Below are positions 21,923-61,547 of a DNA stretch of 64,000 bases, piece by piece. Both the position numbers and the translations under genes were made by a program. Within the stretch, counting starts at the first letter, position 1, and each line of letters begins with the position of its first letter. The notes under the pieces are model-generated. The model saw only the letters and a list, made by a program, of their open reading frames with translations. It was not told the DNA's origin and did not search any database. Source of the DNA: Knoellia sp. p5-6-4 (GTDB lineage Bacteria; Actinomycetota; Actinomycetes; Actinomycetales; Dermatophilaceae); the NCBI RefSeq assembly GCF_029222705.1, contig NZ_JARGZF010000001.1, forward strand, positions 616,437 to 680,436. The letters run 5' to 3'.

Positions 21923-23169
21923 GTGGCGGCCCCTGCGATCTCGGTGGCTTCAGCGTCGATCTGCGGCAAACCCAACACCTTCCGTGCGCGTGCGCGGGCC
22001 CAGGCGTCGGCCCGCAACACCTCCTCAACGCTCAGGGCGTCCGATTCACTCCCCGCCGCGTCACCGTGCCCGTCGACACTGTGCTCGTCGACGACCCGCG
22101 ACACGGTGTCGACGATGTCGAGGAACCCGATGCGGCCCTCGTGGAACGCGTCGACGCCCACCTCGTTGGCCGCGTTGTAGACCGCTGGGTAGGTCCCGCC
22201 GGCCGTGCCGACCTGCCGGGCCAGCCGGACCGCGGGAAACGCGTCGTCGTCGAGCGGGAAGAAGTCCCACGACTGCGCCTGCGTCCAGTCGCACGGCACG
22301 TCGACGTCGGCCAGCCGCTCGGGCCACGAGAGCCCGAGGGCGATCGGCACGAGCATCCGCGGCGGCCCCATCTGCGCGATGGTCGAGCCGTCGTGGAACT
22401 CCACCATCGAGTGGATCCACTGCTGGGGGTGCACGACGACGTCGATCCGCTCGAACGGGATGTCGAAGAGCAGGTGGGCCTCGATCACCTCGAGGCCCTT
22501 GTTGACCAGCGTGGCGGAGTTCGTGGTGACGACGCGGCCCATGGCGTAGTTGGGGTGGGCCAGCGCCTCGGCGGGGGTCACGTGGCGCAGCTGCTCGCGG
22601 GTCCGCCCGCGGAACGGCCCGCCGCTGGCGGTGACGACCAGCCGCCGCACCTCGTCCGACCGTCCGCCGCGCAGGCTCTGGGCGATGGCCGAGTGCTCGG
22701 AGTCGACGGGCACGATCTGGTCGGGTCGGGCCAGCGCCTTGACGAGGGGGCCGCCGACGATGAGCGACTCCTTGTTGGCCAGCGCGAGCACGGAGCCGGC
22801 CTCGAGTGCCGCGAGCGTGGGCCGCAGCCCGATGGAGCCGGTGATCCCGTTGAGCACCACGTTCGCGCCGCAGCCGGCGGCGAGCACGCTCGCCTCCTCG
22901 CCCACCACCACCTCGGGCCGGTATGCCGTGCGGCCGGCCCGGGCGGCATACGCACCGATCGCGTCGGTGACCTGCTCGCGGGTGGCGCCCGCCACGGCCA
23001 CGAACGGGGCCCGGGTCGCCACGGCCTGCTGCGCGACGAGGTCGACGTTGCCGCCGGCGCTGAGCGCGGCGACGGTGAACCGGTCGGGGTTGCGGGCGAT
23101 GACGTCGAGGGCCTGGGTGCCGATCGAGCCGGTCGACCCGAGCACGGCGACGGAGCGGGAGGAGGTCAC
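21919..23169 (-). CDS. dxr: 1-deoxy-D-xylulose 5-phosphate reductoisomerase
   Basis: NADPH-dependent enzyme forming MEP from DXP, the first committed step of the non-mevalonate pathway; 416 residues from GTG 23169. The Rossmann motif VLGSTGSIGTQALDV is at the N-terminus. The metal/substrate region has PVDSEHSAI, TASGGPF and TNSATLVNKGLE, followed by HPQQWIHSMVEF. GTG 23169 is preferred because GGGGGAGAA lies about seven bases upstream; an ATG at 23187 adds six residues but lacks a binding site. Two inverted GTATGCCG octamers lie inside it, and the stop overlaps the rseP start. Confidence 0.97.
   Translation of the reverse strand: MTSSRSVAVLGSTGSIGTQALDVIARNPDRFTVAALSAGGNVDLVAQQAVATRAPFVAVAGATREQVTDAIGAYAARAGRTAYRPEVVVGEEASVLAAGCGANVVLNGITGSIGLRPTLAALEAGSVLALANKESLIVGGPLVKALARPDQIVPVDSEHSAIAQSLRGGRSDEVRRLVVTASGGPFRGRTREQLRHVTPAEALAHPNYAMGRVVTTNSATLVNKGLEVIEAHLLFDIPFERIDVVVHPQQWIHSMVEFHDGSTIAQMGPPRMLVPIALGLSWPERLADVDVPCDWTQAQSWDFFPLDDDAFPAVRLARQVGTAGGTYPAVYNAANEVGVDAFHEGRIGFLDIVDTVSRVVDEHSVDGHGDAAGSESDALSVEEVLRADAWARARARKVLGLPQIDAEATEIAGAAT
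22921..22951. repeat. Inverted pair of GTATGCCG octamers inside dxr
   Basis: GTATGCCG at 22921-22928 and CGGCATAC at 22944-22951 are separated by 15 bases. They encode Ala-Tyr and Tyr-Ala pairs using TAT and GCA, codons seldom used nearby. Confidence 0.8.
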
Positions 23170-44759: not shown

Positions 44760-44794
44760 GTATGCCGCGTGCCCGCGATGAGCGGGCGGCATAC
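44760..44794. repeat. Intergenic inverted pair of GTATGCCG octamers
   Basis: GTATGCCG (44760-44767) and CGGCATAC (44787-44794) face each other; a CGTGCCCGC/GCGGGC extension of the stem gives a hairpin with a small bulge and a GATGA loop. It lies downstream of tsf and upstream of the 65-residue gene and may act as a second terminator for tsf. Confidence 0.75.
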
Positions 44795-56121: not shown

Positions 56122-56879
56122 GCCCATCCCGCGTCTCTCTCGTCCAGTACGCCGTGGTCGTCCGGGGTCGGCCCGGCTGCCTCCCCGACCTCATCTTCCA
56201 CCATCGTCCCGGGCAGGCGCCACGAGCGGCGGTGCAGCGCGCACGGCCCCTCGGACTCGAGGGCCGCGATGTGCTCGGGCGCGGCATACCCCTTGTTCTC
56301 GGCCCAGCGGTATGCCGGGTGCTCCAGCGCCGCCTGCGTCATCAGGGAGTCCCTGGCGACCTTCGCGAGCACGCTCGCAGCGGCGACCGACGAGCACTTC
56401 AGGTCCGCCTTGACCATCGTGGTGACCGGCGGGGTGGTGGGGCCGTCGCCGGCGATGGCGAGCAGACCCACCTCCCCGGGCTCGGTGAGCCAGTCGTGGT
56501 TGCCGTCGAGGATCACCAGGTCGGGCGCCGTGCCCACGGCCTCGAGTGCACGCAGGCCGGCCAGCCTCAGGGCGGCGATGATCCCGATCCGGTCGATCTC
56601 CTCCGCGGACGCGTGCCCCACGGCATGGCCCAGGCACCACCGCTGGATCCTGGGCACCATGGCCGCGCGGGCTGCGGGGGTCAGCAGCTTGGAGTCGCGC
56701 ACGCCGGCCGGCGCGCTGCGGCAGGTCTCGTCGATGAGCACCACGCCCACCGTCACCGGCCCCGCGAGCGCCCCGCGGCCGACCTCGTCCATCCCGGCCA
56801 GCACGCGGTGACCGTCACGCTGCAGCGCTCGCTCCACCCGCAGGCTGGGCTTGCGGGTGCGCGGTGGTGCGGTGGGCAT
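56118..56879 (-). CDS. rnhB: Ribonuclease HII
   Basis: Removes ribonucleotides and RNA from RNA-DNA hybrids; 253 residues. [14 protein letters not shown] (about 29-42) contains the first catalytic Asp-Glu, DSKLLTP and ILDGNHDW contain further site residues, and [21 protein letters not shown] holds the final Asp. A ~40-residue acidic C-terminal tail is extra. It contains an inverted pair of octamers at 56282-56317. Confidence 0.96.
56282..56317. repeat. Inverted pair of CGGCATAC octamers inside rnhB
   Basis: CGGCATAC (56282-56289) and GTATGCCG (56310-56317), each extended by one matching base (CGGCATACC/GGTATGCCG), are separated by 20 bases. Confidence 0.8.
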
Positions 56880-56882
56880 GGG

Positions 56883-57932
56883 TCAGCCGCCACCCGTGGT
56901 CGTCGTCGGAGCCGGGGTCGGTGCGGGAGTGGTCCCCCTGCCGGCAGCGGGCACCTTCGCGAAGGTGGCCTTGGGGTTCGACAGCCACGTGAGGTGGTCG
57001 AGCGGCCACACCAGGGCGACGGCCCGCCCGACGACCAGGCTCTGGGGCACGGACCCGTCCGCACCGTTGCCGGCCGGGTCGTGGAAGCGCGAGTCGGAGG
57101 AGTCCGAGCGGTGGTCCCCCATGACCCACACCGACCCCTCGGGCACGGTGATGTCGAAGTCCGTGCTGCTCGGCGCGTCGCCCGGCTTGATGTAGGACTC
57201 CACGAGCGGGACGCCGTTGACGGTGAGCCGCTCGCCCTCGTCGCAGCAGACCACCCGGTCCCCGGGCAGGCCGATCACGCGCTTGATGAGGTGGTCCTCG
57301 GCGTCGTTGGGCAGCAGCCCCACGAACATCAGGCCCTGCCGGATGGCCGTCACCGCCGGGCCGTGCTCGGCCTTCGGCAGCGGGTCGACCCAGTCGCCAG
57401 GGTCCGAGAACACCACGATGTCGCCGCGCTTGAGGTCGAAGGCGCCGGGCGTCAGCTTGCTCACGATCACCCGGTCGTTGAGGACCAGCGTGTCCTCCAT
57501 GGAGCCCGACGGGATGTAGAAGGCCTGGAGCAGCCAGGTCTTGACGACGAACGAGAGCACGAGCGCCATGCCGATGACGATGACGAACTCCTTCGTCGCC
57601 GCCCTGACCATGCTCCCGGCCCCGCTCCCGCCCGCGTGCCGACGCCGCTCGGTGCGGCCTTCGTCGACGTGGCGCTCCTCGGCACGGCGCTCCTCGGCAC
57701 GGCTCTCCGAGGCGTGGCCCTCCGCGGCATGCGGCTCGTCGACCACCCTGCGTGCAGGTTCGTCGACCGGAACCCCTTGGTGGCTCCCGTCGTGGCGCAG
57801 CCAGCCGTCGTCCGGGGTGGCGTCGTCCGGCGCGGCGTCGCCCGGGGCGGCCCCGTCGAAGTCGTGACGCAGCCAGGCCGGGTCCGCCTCGTGGCCGGCG
57901 CCGGTGCGGCCGCGACCCTGGTCCTCGCTCAT
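56883..57932 (-). CDS. lepB: Signal peptidase I (long N-terminal extension)
   Basis: Membrane serine protease that cleaves exported preproteins; 349 residues. The first ~105 residues are a charged, Arg/Glu/Asp-rich cytoplasmic extension. One transmembrane helix (about 112-135) is followed by the catalytic Ser in FYIPSGSMEDTL and Lys in IKRVIGLPGD, and by GDHRSDSSDSR. A Pro/Thr tail ends the protein. Second of two tandem signal peptidases; its start overlaps the upstream one by four bases. Confidence 0.93.
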   Translation of the reverse strand: MSEDQGRGRTGAGHEADPAWLRHDFDGAAPGDAAPDDATPDDGWLRHDGSHQGVPVDEPARRVVDEPHAAEGHASESRAEERRAEERHVDEGRTERRRHAGGSGAGSMVRAATKEFVIVIGMALVLSFVVKTWLLQAFYIPSGSMEDTLVLNDRVIVSKLTPGAFDLKRGDIVVFSDPGDWVDPLPKAEHGPAVTAIRQGLMFVGLLPNDAEDHLIKRVIGLPGDRVVCCDEGERLTVNGVPLVESYIKPGDAPSSTDFDITVPEGSVWVMGDHRSDSSDSRFHDPAGNGADGSVPQSLVVGRAVALVWPLDHLTWLSNPKATFAKVPAAGRGTTPAPTPAPTTTTGGG

Positions 57933-58675
57933 CGTGCCCCTTCTGCCGCCGGGATGGACCGGAGTGCCGGCGACGTGGCCAGACCCCCGAGCCGGTCCAG
58001 CGGCCAGTAGATCGCCGTGGCCCTGCCCACGACGTCGTCGGTCCGCACCATGCCGCCCCCCGGGTCACCGAGGTGCGCCCTGGAGTCGGCGGAGTTGCTG
58101 CGATTGTCTCCCATCAGCCAGAGCCGCCCGGCGGGGACTGTCACGTCGAACGTCGTCTCGCTCGGCTTGGTTCCCTCGGGCAGGTAGTCCTCCTCGACGG
58201 CCCGGCCGTTGACCGTGAGCCGACCCTGCGCGTCGCAGCAGAGCACCCGGTCCCCCGGCAGGCCGACGATCCGCTTGACGTAGTCCTGCTCCGCGAGGTC
58301 CACACCGAAGAGCGAGGCCGCGCCACCGAGCACCCGCCCGACGAGGCCGTCGGCCTGCTGCGGGCTGCGGTCGGCCACCGCGAACGAGCGGGTGCCGTCG
58401 AAGACGACGACGTCACCGCGCCGCAGGTCGTCGGCGCCGGCCGTCTTGTCGACGAGGATGCGGTCACCGGGGGTGATGGCGGGCTCCATCGAGGCAGAGG
58501 GGACGTAGAAGGACTGCACGAGGAACGCCCGGACCAGCATCATCACGAGCAGCGCGATGCCGGCCAGGAGCAGCCACGAGGGGCGGCGCGGGGGCGCAGA
58601 CGACGCGGCCGCCGCGTCTGCCGGGGCAGGCGCGGCGGCCGGTGTCGACTGCGGGGAGTCAGGTCCGGAGTTCAT
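57929..58675 (-). CDS. lepB: Signal peptidase I (short form)
   Basis: A 248-residue signal peptidase. Proline/alanine-rich N-terminus, one helix (about 33-55), catalytic Ser in FYVPSASMEPAI (SxS M pattern), Lys in VKRIVGLPGDRV, and GDNRSNSADSR. It is clearly a paralogue of the next gene; both have the complete active site, so both are probably active with different preferences. A TAGGCT -10 box lies just before its ATG, suggesting both genes are transcribed from here. Confidence 0.93.
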   Translation of the reverse strand: MNSGPDSPQSTPAAAPAPADAAAASSAPPRRPSWLLLAGIALLVMMLVRAFLVQSFYVPSASMEPAITPGDRILVDKTAGADDLRRGDVVVFDGTRSFAVADRSPQQADGLVGRVLGGAASLFGVDLAEQDYVKRIVGLPGDRVLCCDAQGRLTVNGRAVEEDYLPEGTKPSETTFDVTVPAGRLWLMGDNRSNSADSRAHLGDPGGGMVRTDDVVGRATAIYWPLDRLGGLATSPALRSIPAAEGAR

Positions 58676-59393: not shown

Positions 59394-60194
59394 TCAGCGC
59401 TGCGGGTGGGGTGCCTCCGCGGCTGGCTGCCCGGGCGTCGCCGGAGGCGGCAGCTCCTCGAGCACCTCGCGGTCGCGGGCGTCGAGGTCCTGCTCGTCGA
59501 GGGCCGCGACCATGTCGGGGCGGCGGCGCAAGGTGCGCCGGAGCCGCTCGTCGCGCCGCCAGCGCGCGATGGCCGCGTGGTGGCCCGACAGGAGCACGTC
59601 GGGCACGGCTCGCCCGCGCCACACCGCGGGTTTGGTGTAGACGGGGTACTCGAGCAGCCCGTCCTCGTGGGACTCCTCGACCAGCGACTCCGCGTTGCCG
59701 ATGACGCCGGGCACCAGCCGCGCGATCGCCTCGACCATCGCTAGCACCGCGACCTCGCCGCCGTTGAGCACGTAGTCGCCGAGCGAGACCACGGAGACCG
59801 GCATGTGCTCCCGGGCCTCCTCGTAGACCCGCTCGTCGATGCCCTCGTAGCGGCCGCAGGCGAAGGCCAGCCACGGCTGCCGGGCCAGGTCGCGCGCCAT
59901 GGCCTGGGTGAAGGGCAGCCCGCCGGGCCCTGGCACGATGAGGTGGGGTGGCGCGTCGGCCGCCCCCTGCGCGAGCACGTGGTCGAGCGCCTCGCCCCAC
60001 GGCTCGGGTCGCATCACCATGCCAGCGCCGCCACCGTATGGCGTGTCGTCGACCGTGCGGTGGCGGTCGTGCGTGAAGTCCCGCAGGTCGTGCACGTGCA
60101 GGTCGATCAGACCTCTGCGGCGGGCAGTGCCGATGAGCGACAGGTCCAGCGGCGCCAGGTAGTCGGGGAAGATCGAGACGACGTCGAGGCGCAT
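59394..60194 (-). CDS. trmD: tRNA (guanine37-N1)-methyltransferase
   Basis: SPOUT-fold methyltransferase of 266 residues acting on G37 of tRNAs. [26 protein letters not shown] and [12 protein letters not shown] form the knotted AdoMet site; [12 protein letters not shown] is the C-terminal catalytic region. ATG 60194 is chosen because GAAGGG lies upstream; GTG 60200 overlaps the rimM stop. Order rpsP-KH-rimM-trmD is conserved. Confidence 0.96.
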
Positions 60195-60196
60195 GC

Positions 60197-60739
60197 TCAC
60201 CCTTCGCCGGGCTCGGCGTTGAGCTCGAGCAGGCCGGGCGGCGGGGCGATGACGACGCGGCCCGCCTCGACGTCGACCTCGGGCACGATCTCCGCGACGA
60301 ACGGCACGTAGGCCGTGCCGCCGCCGGGCAGGGTGAGCACCAGGAGGTCCTGCGCCGGCCCGACCTCGAGCCCGCTGACGGTTCCGAGCTCGGCCCCCGC
60401 GGGGTCGACGGCCCTCAGGCCCACGAGCTCGTCCTCGTACCAGGCGTCCTCCTCGGCCTCGTCCTCGACGGTCTCGGTGTCGACGAACAGCCGCGTCCCG
60501 CGCAGCCCCTCGGCGCCGGTGCGGTCGGGGATGCCCTCGAAGGCGAGCAGCCAGATGCCGTTGTGGACCCGCACGCTGCGCAGCACGAGCTCGCGTGGCA
60601 CCCCCGAGCCGTCTGCGGCCTCGGTGGCGAACTGCGCCCCGGGCACGAAGCGGGTCTCGGGGTCGTCGGTGTGCACCTGCACGGTCACCTCACCGCGCAG
60701 GCTGTGTGCTTTCCCGATCCGGGCTACGAGCAGGTGCAT
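60197..60739 (-). CDS. rimM: 16S rRNA processing protein RimM
   Basis: Maturation factor for the 30S head; 180 residues. N-terminal beta barrel starting [20 protein letters not shown] and C-terminal PRC barrel with [16 protein letters not shown] and [14 protein letters not shown]. It starts after a 17-bp perfect hairpin that separates it from the KH-protein gene. Confidence 0.95.
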
Positions 60740-60765: not shown

Positions 60766-60804
60766 ACGGGGTATGCCGGGAGGTGGACTCCCGGCATACC
60801 CCGT
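60766..60804. terminator. Perfect 17-bp stem-loop built on two GTATGCCG octamers (KH-rimM gap)
   Basis: Arms ACGGGGTATGCCGGGAG (60766-60782) and CTCCCGGCATACCCCGT (60788-60804) are perfectly complementary around the loop GTGGA. It lies inside an operon, 24 bases after the KH-protein stop and 26 bases before the rimM start on the minus strand. It may be a partial terminator, an RNA processing site or an mRNA stabiliser. The octamers make up the stem centre. Confidence 0.85.
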
Positions 60805-60828: not shown

Positions 60829-61071
60829 TCAGCGGACCCGATCCGTGTCGACGATGTCGATCCGGACGGCGTGGCCGCCGGCGAGGGCGCCCATCACGGT
60901 GCGCAGCGCGCTGGCGGTGCGGCCCGAGCGGCCGATGACCCGCCCGAGGTCGTCCGGGTGCACCCGGACCTCGAGGACCTCACCGCGGCGCAGGTCCCTG
61001 CGTCGCACGGCGACGTCGTCCTTGTGGTCGACGATGCCCTTGACGAGGTGCTCGAGCGCCTCCTCCAGCAC
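60829..61071 (-). CDS. khpA: KH-domain RNA-binding protein (KhpA type)
   Basis: An 80-residue single KH domain protein with the RNA-binding loop in GRVIGRSGRTASALR (GxxG = GRSG). KhpA-type proteins bind many transcripts together with KhpB. GTG 61071 is two bases after the rpsP stop, so it is translated as part of the operon. Confidence 0.92.
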   Translation of the reverse strand: MLEEALEHLVKGIVDHKDDVAVRRRDLRRGEVLEVRVHPDDLGRVIGRSGRTASALRTVMGALAGGHAVRIDIVDTDRVR

Positions 61072-61073
61072 GG

Positions 61074-61547
61074 TCAGGCCTCGCTCTTCTCAGCCTCGGC
61101 CTCGGTGGCCTCGGCAGCCGGGGCCTCCTCGACCTTGGGCTCCGCGGCCTTCTTCTCGGCCTTCTTCTTCGGGGTCGTCGCAGTGTCCTTGACGTCCTCG
61201 GCCTTGCCCGCGGCGGCGACGGCAGCCTCGTACAGGTCCTTCTTGGACGGCTTGGGCTCCTTGACCTTCAGGGTGCCCTCGGCGCCCGGAAGGCCCTTGA
61301 ACTTCTGCCAGTCACCGGTCACCTTGAGCAGGGCCTCGACGGCCTCGGTCGGCTGCGCGCCCTGGCCCAGCCAGTACTGCGCACGCTCGGTGTCGATGTC
61401 GATGACCGAGGGCTCCTCGGTCGGGTGGTACTTGCCGATCTCCTCGATGGCACGGCCATCGCGCTTGGTGCGCGAGTCCATGACGACAACGCGGTAGAAG
61501 GGGCTGCGGATCTTGCCCATCCGCTTCAGGCGAATCTTGACGGCCAC
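61074..61547 (-). CDS. rpsP: 30S ribosomal protein S16
   Basis: Ribosomal protein bS16; 157 residues from GTG 61547 ([21 protein letters not shown]). The conserved domain ends near residue 85; the remaining ~70 residues are an Ala/Lys/Glu-rich tail typical of actinobacteria. First gene of rpsP-khpA-rimM-trmD. An upstream element is shared with rplS. Confidence 0.97.

Follow-up and report, generated by a model that had tools for sequence, protein, structure and literature searches.

To our knowledge, self-specific DNA uptake has been documented only in the Neisseriaceae and the Pasteurellaceae, and why uptake words evolve is an old dispute. Uptake sequences were described as lacking a general orientation bias while one orientation was commoner in reading frames, and their intergenic inverted repeats were proposed as terminators, a role that was called contentious (PMC2346458). 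Inverted pairs of uptake sequences were elsewhere stated to act as rho-independent terminators (PMC2397512), and such pairs were reported to be numerous in all dialect genomes, the dialects being congruent with phylogeny (PMC3630211).

The octamer CGGCATAC (reverse complement GTATGCCG) was found to form the core of a hairpin in the window, which is the whole stretch of 64,000 nucleotides analysed here. It shares with the neisserial DUS (10-12 bp) the presence of hundreds to thousands of copies, the restriction to one family (for the octamer, among the genomes sampled) and the absence of a general orientation bias (PMC2397512, PMC3630211, PMC2346458), and likewise one orientation that is commoner in reading frames and closely spaced inverted pairs, which for DUS lie in terminators. 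It differs from DUS in its length of 8 bp, in its sequence, in belonging to Gram-positive bacteria, of a family that probably lacks type IVa pili, and in being known from sequence only. A sharp core word, no general orientation bias and intergenic inverted forms were found in common with the pasteurellacean USS (9-10 bp) as described in PMC2346458, whereas the sequence, the lineage and the machinery differ, and the downstream T-rich segments of USS have no proven counterpart here. HIP1 (GCGATCGC) of cyanobacteria, according to PMC4390886, is also a highly iterated 8-mer that is overabundant in many members of one lineage; however, HIP1 is a palindrome linked to methyltransferases, whereas CGGCATAC is not its own reverse complement, and a HIP1 reading was rejected on that ground. 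Chi shares the octamer length and the overabundance, but the present word showed no polarity (in one chromosome) and no tie to RecBCD (followed via RecC). With an intrinsic terminator the window hairpin shares a strong GC-rich stem after a stop codon and differs by the absent U-run.

No report of CGGCATAC as an uptake word or of uptake sequences in Actinobacteria surfaced in the open-access literature, nor did any paper on an uptake experiment in this bacterial family; the sole literature match for the word itself was a Ralstonia typing paper. Transformation of Micrococcus luteus was described as dependent on Flp pili (tad genes) and as requiring ComEC (PMC4322843, PMC6370729), so that in Actinobacteria DNA can be taken up by another route than type IVa pili; uptake-sequence terms were absent from another Micrococcus luteus paper (PMC8467076).

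The khpA-rimM junction

The genes rplS, trmD, rimM, khpA and rpsP were found to occupy 58.7-61.5 kb of the window on the minus strand (Table 1). RpsP, a KhpA-type RNA-binding protein, RimM and TrmD, followed by RplS, were all matched above the NCBIfam cut-offs, which bears out the gene names rpsP-khpA-rimM-trmD given in the first-pass annotation. The spacing was found to be tight between rpsP and khpA as well as between rimM and trmD. Two adjoining signal peptidase I genes (56883-58675) were found downstream of rplS.

Table 1. Features of the window at and around the khpA-rimM spacer, with the other inverted octamer pairs
Feature	Position	Strand	Remarks
Perfect stem-loop	60766..60804	-	arms 60766-60782 and 60788-60804, 17 bp; loop 60783-60787, 5 nt; khpA-rimM spacer; terminator-like 3' stem (putative)
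Octamer CGGCATAC, one arm of inverted pair	60771..60778	-	reads GTATGCCG on +
Octamer CGGCATAC, other arm of inverted pair	60792..60799	+	
khpA (KH-domain RNA-binding protein), upstream gene	60829..61071	-	NCBIfam NF002761, 127 bits
rimM, downstream gene	60197..60739	-	TIGR02273, 116 bits
rpsP (ribosomal protein S16), first gene of cluster	61074..61547	-	NF011093, 233 bits
trmD, next after rimM	59394..60200	-	NF000648, 305 bits (scan range 59394-60194)
Intergenic inverted octamer pair, second in window	44760..44794		equal-length counterpart in congener, L160:9594-9628
Inverted octamer pair inside called gene	22921..22951		equal-length counterpart in congener, L159:5871-5901

The two arms of the stem-loop were exact reverse complements over all 17 bp, and the perfect hairpin with a 5-base loop that had been described from the letters was thus confirmed. 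It was the longest perfect stem of the window (loop 3-12), followed by a runner-up of 13 bp, and the rarity claimed for such a stem was upheld by 25 simulated 64-kb windows (third-order Markov), in which the longest stems reached 10-13 bp. The stem core was also found to be a repeated octamer as claimed, with the correction that the repeated word is CGGCATAC/GTATGCCG, of which the window contains 32 copies where 1.3 would be expected. The khpA-rimM spacer, folded as gene-strand RNA, gave -47.1 kcal/mol (z = -6.4 against dinucleotide shuffles). The hairpin lies 24 nt past the khpA stop codon and 26 nt ahead of the rimM start codon; measured from the octamer edges the distances are 29 nt and 31 nt, respectively, which puts it among the closest calls for the stop-side placement of pairs. 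It was found to have the GC-rich stem-loop shortly after a stop codon that is expected of an intrinsic terminator, whereas no U-run was found after the stem, the 3' flank being AGUUCUG. The hairpin was not among the calls of a simple terminator scan of the window, and an Rfam search returned one chance match only.

Among 66 sequences considered for the same spacer, 30 were without a recognisable khpA end, 3 contained spacers under 25 nt and 33 were folded. Strong folding (z < -2) was found in 28 of the 33 spacers including the window (27 of 32 without it) and z < -3 in 23 of the 33, these folds being compared with shuffles only, with some spacers near-duplicates and the rimM starts approximate. 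The five weakly folding spacers (L018, L037, L044, L053 and L076), together with the very short ones of L041, L047 and L056, count against a universal stem. The stems at this site were found to be unrelated between relatives: the spacer of L015 contained a perfect 19-bp stem, and the Sinomonas and Arthrobacter loci (L024, L033, L036 and L038) contained a T-run. The comparison with related genomes that the first-pass annotation had proposed went against conservation of the hairpin sequence, as the exact hairpin was absent from the 20 loci compared (of 65 fetched via RimM) and from the folded spacers inspected, L013 coming nearest to it, with the octamer intact in one arm and a single mismatch in the second. 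An alpha/beta-hydrolase gene (Pfam; L050:9112-9963) was found to separate khpA from rimM in Pedococcus cremeus, and an amidohydrolase gene immediately preceded rimM in Flexivirga caeni.

From these comparisons the khpA-rimM junction looks like a transcript boundary. Because most spacers fold strongly with unrelated stems and other genes stand at the junction in two relatives, the terminator-like stem seems to be old, with a sequence that is turning over and that has here been replaced by octamers. The hairpin might instead be a non-terminating one, which protects the 3' end of rpsP-khpA or marks an RNase site within a continuous rpsP-trmD mRNA and so leads to unequal gene levels; this reading, the cleavage variant of the first-pass annotation, concerns the hairpin only, is compatible with an uptake function of the octamer, and is regarded as possible though rather doubtful. 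The very stable stem without a U-run, 26 nt before rimM, and the otherwise tight spacing of rpsP-khpA and of rimM-trmD fit it, whereas the T-run at the same spot in the four Sinomonas and Arthrobacter loci and the gene inserted between khpA and rimM in a relative favour a boundary.

Abundance, placement and retention of the octamer

The heptamer GGCATAC was found to be preceded by C at all 32 of its 32 occurrences in the window. The whole genome (3.81 Mb) contained 924 + 898 = 1822 copies of CGGCATAC, against 118 copies of the reversed-word control. A pool of 948,572 bases of octamer-rich sequence contained 634 copies against 30 expected; the pool consists of 45 sequences and is partly selected, containing 9 RimM loci chosen for at least 10 octamers, stretches of known rich genomes and three stretches of the own genome (L100-L102) placed on known hairpins, and omitting the relatives' loci L019 (7 octamers) and L022 (4). 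In 42 non-overlapping stretches of rich genomes, which were not picked for octamers or hairpins, 567 copies were found in 830,000 bases.

The 24 one-base variants were present in the pool at 0.1-1.8 times expectation, and the word is therefore sharp and 8 bp long; its flanks contained at most 0.24 bits at any of the 15 positions checked on each side. Real uptake sequences often show more near-miss enrichment than was seen for the octamer. The lowest neighbours were CAGCATAC (0.11 of expectation), TGGCATAC (0.35) and CCGCATAC (0.36), and these low counts probably arise because the octamer itself raises the expectation. The conversion of a one-base neighbour into the octamer by a biased process, in the style of very-short-patch repair, was rejected: no plausible donor was depleted in step, and CGGCGTAC and CGGCCTAC were slightly above expectation. 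A REP/MITE-type dispersed repeat was also rejected, the flanks and inner stems differing between pairs with no likeness beyond the core word. A weak rise of T at +12 to +22 of the octamer was found to recur at every third position and may reflect codon phase.

The two strands were balanced, with none of 110 rich genomes showing |z| > 3. In G079, a single dnaA-first contig, 123 leading-oriented and 141 lagging-oriented copies were found in 400 kb over both arms, the terminus being assumed near mid-contig in this one chromosome; a KOPS-like (FtsK-orienting) word was rejected for the lack of polarity towards the terminus there. One stretch of the same genome, L082 (G079:C1:800001-820000), contained only 3 octamers in 20 kb. 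Among 10 of its 14 called proteins that were scanned, sugar transport, BtpA and aldehyde dehydrogenase families were found and no phage or integrase family; the stretch is accessory-looking, which is suggestive only.

Outside the called genes 175 of the 634 pooled copies were found, though such sequence makes up 11% of the bases, and the density was 1.2-1.8 copies per kb between genes against 0.55 inside. This split depends on a purpose-made gene caller, which reproduced the known genes here and missed some elsewhere. Among the 459 copies within called genes, 270 were antisense and 189 sense (p = 1.8e-4); the antisense copies were found to encode X-Tyr-Ala in 232 of 270 cases and the sense copies (Ala/Thr/Pro)-Ala-Tyr in 139 of 189.

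In the congener G149, 26 of the 32 window copies were alignable and 22 of the 26 were kept, whereas 8-mers matched in GC were kept in 43.5% of cases (p = 2e-5); the two octamers of the hairpin itself were among the six copies without an alignment. Four one-base-variant octamers were kept at 16 of 30 sites (p = 0.02 against the 22 of 26), a comparison that uses 4 of the 24 variants and controls without codon-position matching. Since short tyrosine-codon words were kept about as well (GAGTAC at 16 of 19 sites, GACTAC at 19 of 26) and the controls were unmatched for codon position, coding constraint explains part of the retention.

The arrangement GTATGCCG-N(0-30)-CGGCATAC was found 48 times in this genome, 7-fold over the 6.7 expected for an even spread, an expectation that takes no account of octamers being clustered between genes; the reversed pattern was found 0 times. 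The excess of inverted pairs was 1.9-10-fold in the six genomes computed, G049 containing 209 against 20.6 and G100, the weakest, 77 against 41. Within 40 nt the pool contained 20 hairpin-type pairs, 11 of the opposite type and 2 direct, followed by 11, 7 and 1, respectively, in the stretches not picked for octamers, so that both inverted arrangements are favoured over the direct one. A pair of the opposite type, CGGCATAC..GTATGCCG, 20 nt apart, was found inside the RNase HII gene (Pfam) of the window (56282-56317), and similar pairs were found at L013:18202 and L020:17333, apparently at the same coding spot.

Gene context was available for 24 distinct hairpin-type pairs, of which 17 were tandem, 4 convergent, 1 divergent and 2 within a gene; eight of the loci in this set were added because they carry pairs, two of the 24 pairs are counterparts of others in a congener, the two in-gene pairs are counterparts in congeners, and the pair of L100 was scored as genic in the density count and as convergent here, where the edges are looser. 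Among the tandem pairs, 16 of 17 were nearer to the preceding stop codon (median 25 nt) than to the next start codon (median 97), and the 18 nt on their 3' side contained 2.8 T against 1.3. Inverted pairs close to a stop codon thus appear, from their placement, to occupy terminator positions. The claim that the octamer is used in RNA-level structures would fit these pairs just after stop codons, which are only some of the copies. As 459 of the 634 pooled copies lie in called genes, where both strands carry them and most have no partner, the main role of the octamer is more likely at the DNA level.

Octamer-rich genomes, defined by a count of 300 or more that is also no less than 2.5 times the reversed control, made up 110 (in 31 genera) of the 186 family genomes; 66 (in 22 genera) were poor, with under 150 copies, and 10 lay between; the maximum was 4724 copies. 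The rich mark was reached by none of 362 sampled genomes from other families of the order and by none of 260 sampled genomes from other orders of the class, the highest count outside the family being 386 (control 176). The family tally is a hand-entered table of counts, and the marks outside the family were judged by eye. At least 7 copies in about 20 kb were found in Knoellia koreensis, Pedococcus cremeus, Serinicoccus, Ornithinimicrobium tianjinense, Flexivirga caeni and Arsenicicoccus cauae, all of which we take to be members of the GTDB family Dermatophilaceae. The genera g4, g33 and g42 were found to contain both rich and poor members, which suggests recent loss of the octamer there; G008, G084 and G114 are single octamer-poor genomes in otherwise rich genera.

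Uptake genes and readings of the octamer

ComEC was found in 180 of the 186 family genomes, ComEA in 179 (97 of them over the curated cut-off) and the DUF4244 family, which we take to be the actinobacterial Flp pilin, in 172, all three being present in this genome. PilT was found over the cut-off in 2 of the 186, G086 and G180, both octamer-rich, and in pieces in G182; it was not found over the cut-off in this genome. With PilT absent from this genome and almost every relative, these bacteria probably have no type IVa pili. ComEC was missing from 6 genomes, all octamer-rich and two of them over 90% complete; ComEA was missing from 7 (6 rich and 1 poor) and DUF4244 from 14 (8 rich and 6 poor). 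Several of the genomes with missing genes were under 90% complete, whereas G129 and G168, without matches to ComEC and ComEA, were 93 and 95% complete. RecC was found in 48 of the 110 rich and 37 of the 66 poor genomes and was absent from this one. In phyletic profiling across the 186 genomes, none of ComEC, ComEA, DUF4244, PilT and RecC was found to track the octamer. In genus g4, the poor member G008 was found to contain RecC and its four rich sisters were found without it.

Gross overabundance of one sharp non-palindromic word, the absence of strand bias and (in one chromosome) of replication bias, enrichment in intergenic sequence and in inverted pairs at the ends of genes, and one orientation that is commoner in genes were all found, as in DUS and USS; clear dialects (in three octamer-poor genomes) and the type IVa pilus machinery of the known users were not, and for want of that machinery the octamer is called DUS-like and not a member. 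The octamer, apparently a Gram-positive family's genome-wide word of DUS-like type, is the real finding. It explains the regularity of the hairpin and why the stem core is the repeated octamer.

We consider the chances evenly balanced that the hairpin is a 3'-end stem of rpsP-khpA at an old terminator-like position, its arms made of two inverted CGGCATAC, and that the octamer is a family-specific DNA-level signal which behaves like the uptake sequences of the Neisseriaceae and Pasteurellaceae. An uptake function appears to be the best-fitting reading of the octamer. The competence machinery would have a surface receptor (ComEA or parts of the Flp pilus, type IVa pili being probably missing) that prefers octamer-bearing DNA; the imported DNA of relatives would recombine into the chromosome, octamers would build up at tolerant sites, most of all in intergenic sequence, and inverted pairs would settle in terminator stems, where they come at no cost. 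We infer the uptake preference, the receptor, and the termination or 3'-end protection by the window stem. The stronger proposal, that CGGCATAC is an actinobacterial DNA uptake sequence read by a machine of the Flp-pilus/ComEA type, and a third independent origin of self-specific uptake, uptake words having once more entered terminator stems like that at khpA-rimM, is put forward tentatively, at a little under even chances. We know of no uptake sequence in Gram-positive bacteria, and CGGCATAC would be the first. If the proposal is true, the outcome would be the same as in Neisseria, the word moving into terminator stems. The uptake reading is weakened because PilT, part of the known uptake engines, was found in only 2 of the 186 genomes, because ComEC, ComEA and DUF4244 occur with or without the octamer, and because near-miss octamers are barely enriched; for the hairpin, the missing U-run and the unconserved stem sequence count against a terminator. 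The family, sampled in 53 genera, includes close sister genomes of which some abound in the word and others hardly have it, and would so allow the evolution of such words to be tested by comparison, under another type of pilus.

The main rival to the uptake reading is a DNA-binding mark of some other type, although we think it unlikely that the octamer is a chromosome-wide binding or methylation site of a nucleoid, segregation or self-recognition protein, as HIP1 may be. The dense strand-symmetric spread and the retention in the congener would fit any double-strand binding protein, and the poor single members of three rich genera (G008, G084 and G114) would fit the loss of one gene; on the other side, the octamer is no palindrome, unlike HIP1, and overabundance through binding alone needs selection at some 1800 sites.

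It is very unlikely that the octamer is a Chi-like signal which stops or switches a RecBCD-type nuclease, the hairpin being an accidental inverted pair. The octamer length and the genome-wide abundance fit such a signal, Chi being counted among such words in PMC4390886, but the strands were balanced, no replichore polarity was found (in one chromosome), RecC was absent here and in 62 of the 110 rich genomes and present in 37 of the 66 poor ones, and inverted pairs after stop codons are not predicted. That the octamer is purely a terminator word, a preferred building block of intrinsic terminators with the genic copies as by-products, is hardly credible: the inverted pairs after stop codons with T-richer tails and the position-conserved stem at khpA-rimM fit it, but 459 of the 634 pooled copies lie in called genes, the 48 pairs take at most 96 of the genome's 1822 copies, relatives have other stems at khpA-rimM, and the 22 of 26 alignable window copies that were kept are mostly single.

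Words and repeats in octamer-poor genomes

A search for dialects was made in three octamer-poor genomes, with about 160-180 kb of each. Nothing convincing was found in G160. In G084 (genus g33; L115, L134 and L152-L157), CGCCGTAC was found 107 times in 159 kb against 22.6 expected and may be a dialect or codon bias. G053 (genus g27; L116, L145, L147 and L149-L151) was found to contain its own dispersed repeat, nearly absent from two sampled congeners (L132 and L133), which is built on the arm CGCAACTGCC with 50 copies in 160 kb; this arm often faces a variant arm, and the perfect 22-bp palindrome was found only twice.
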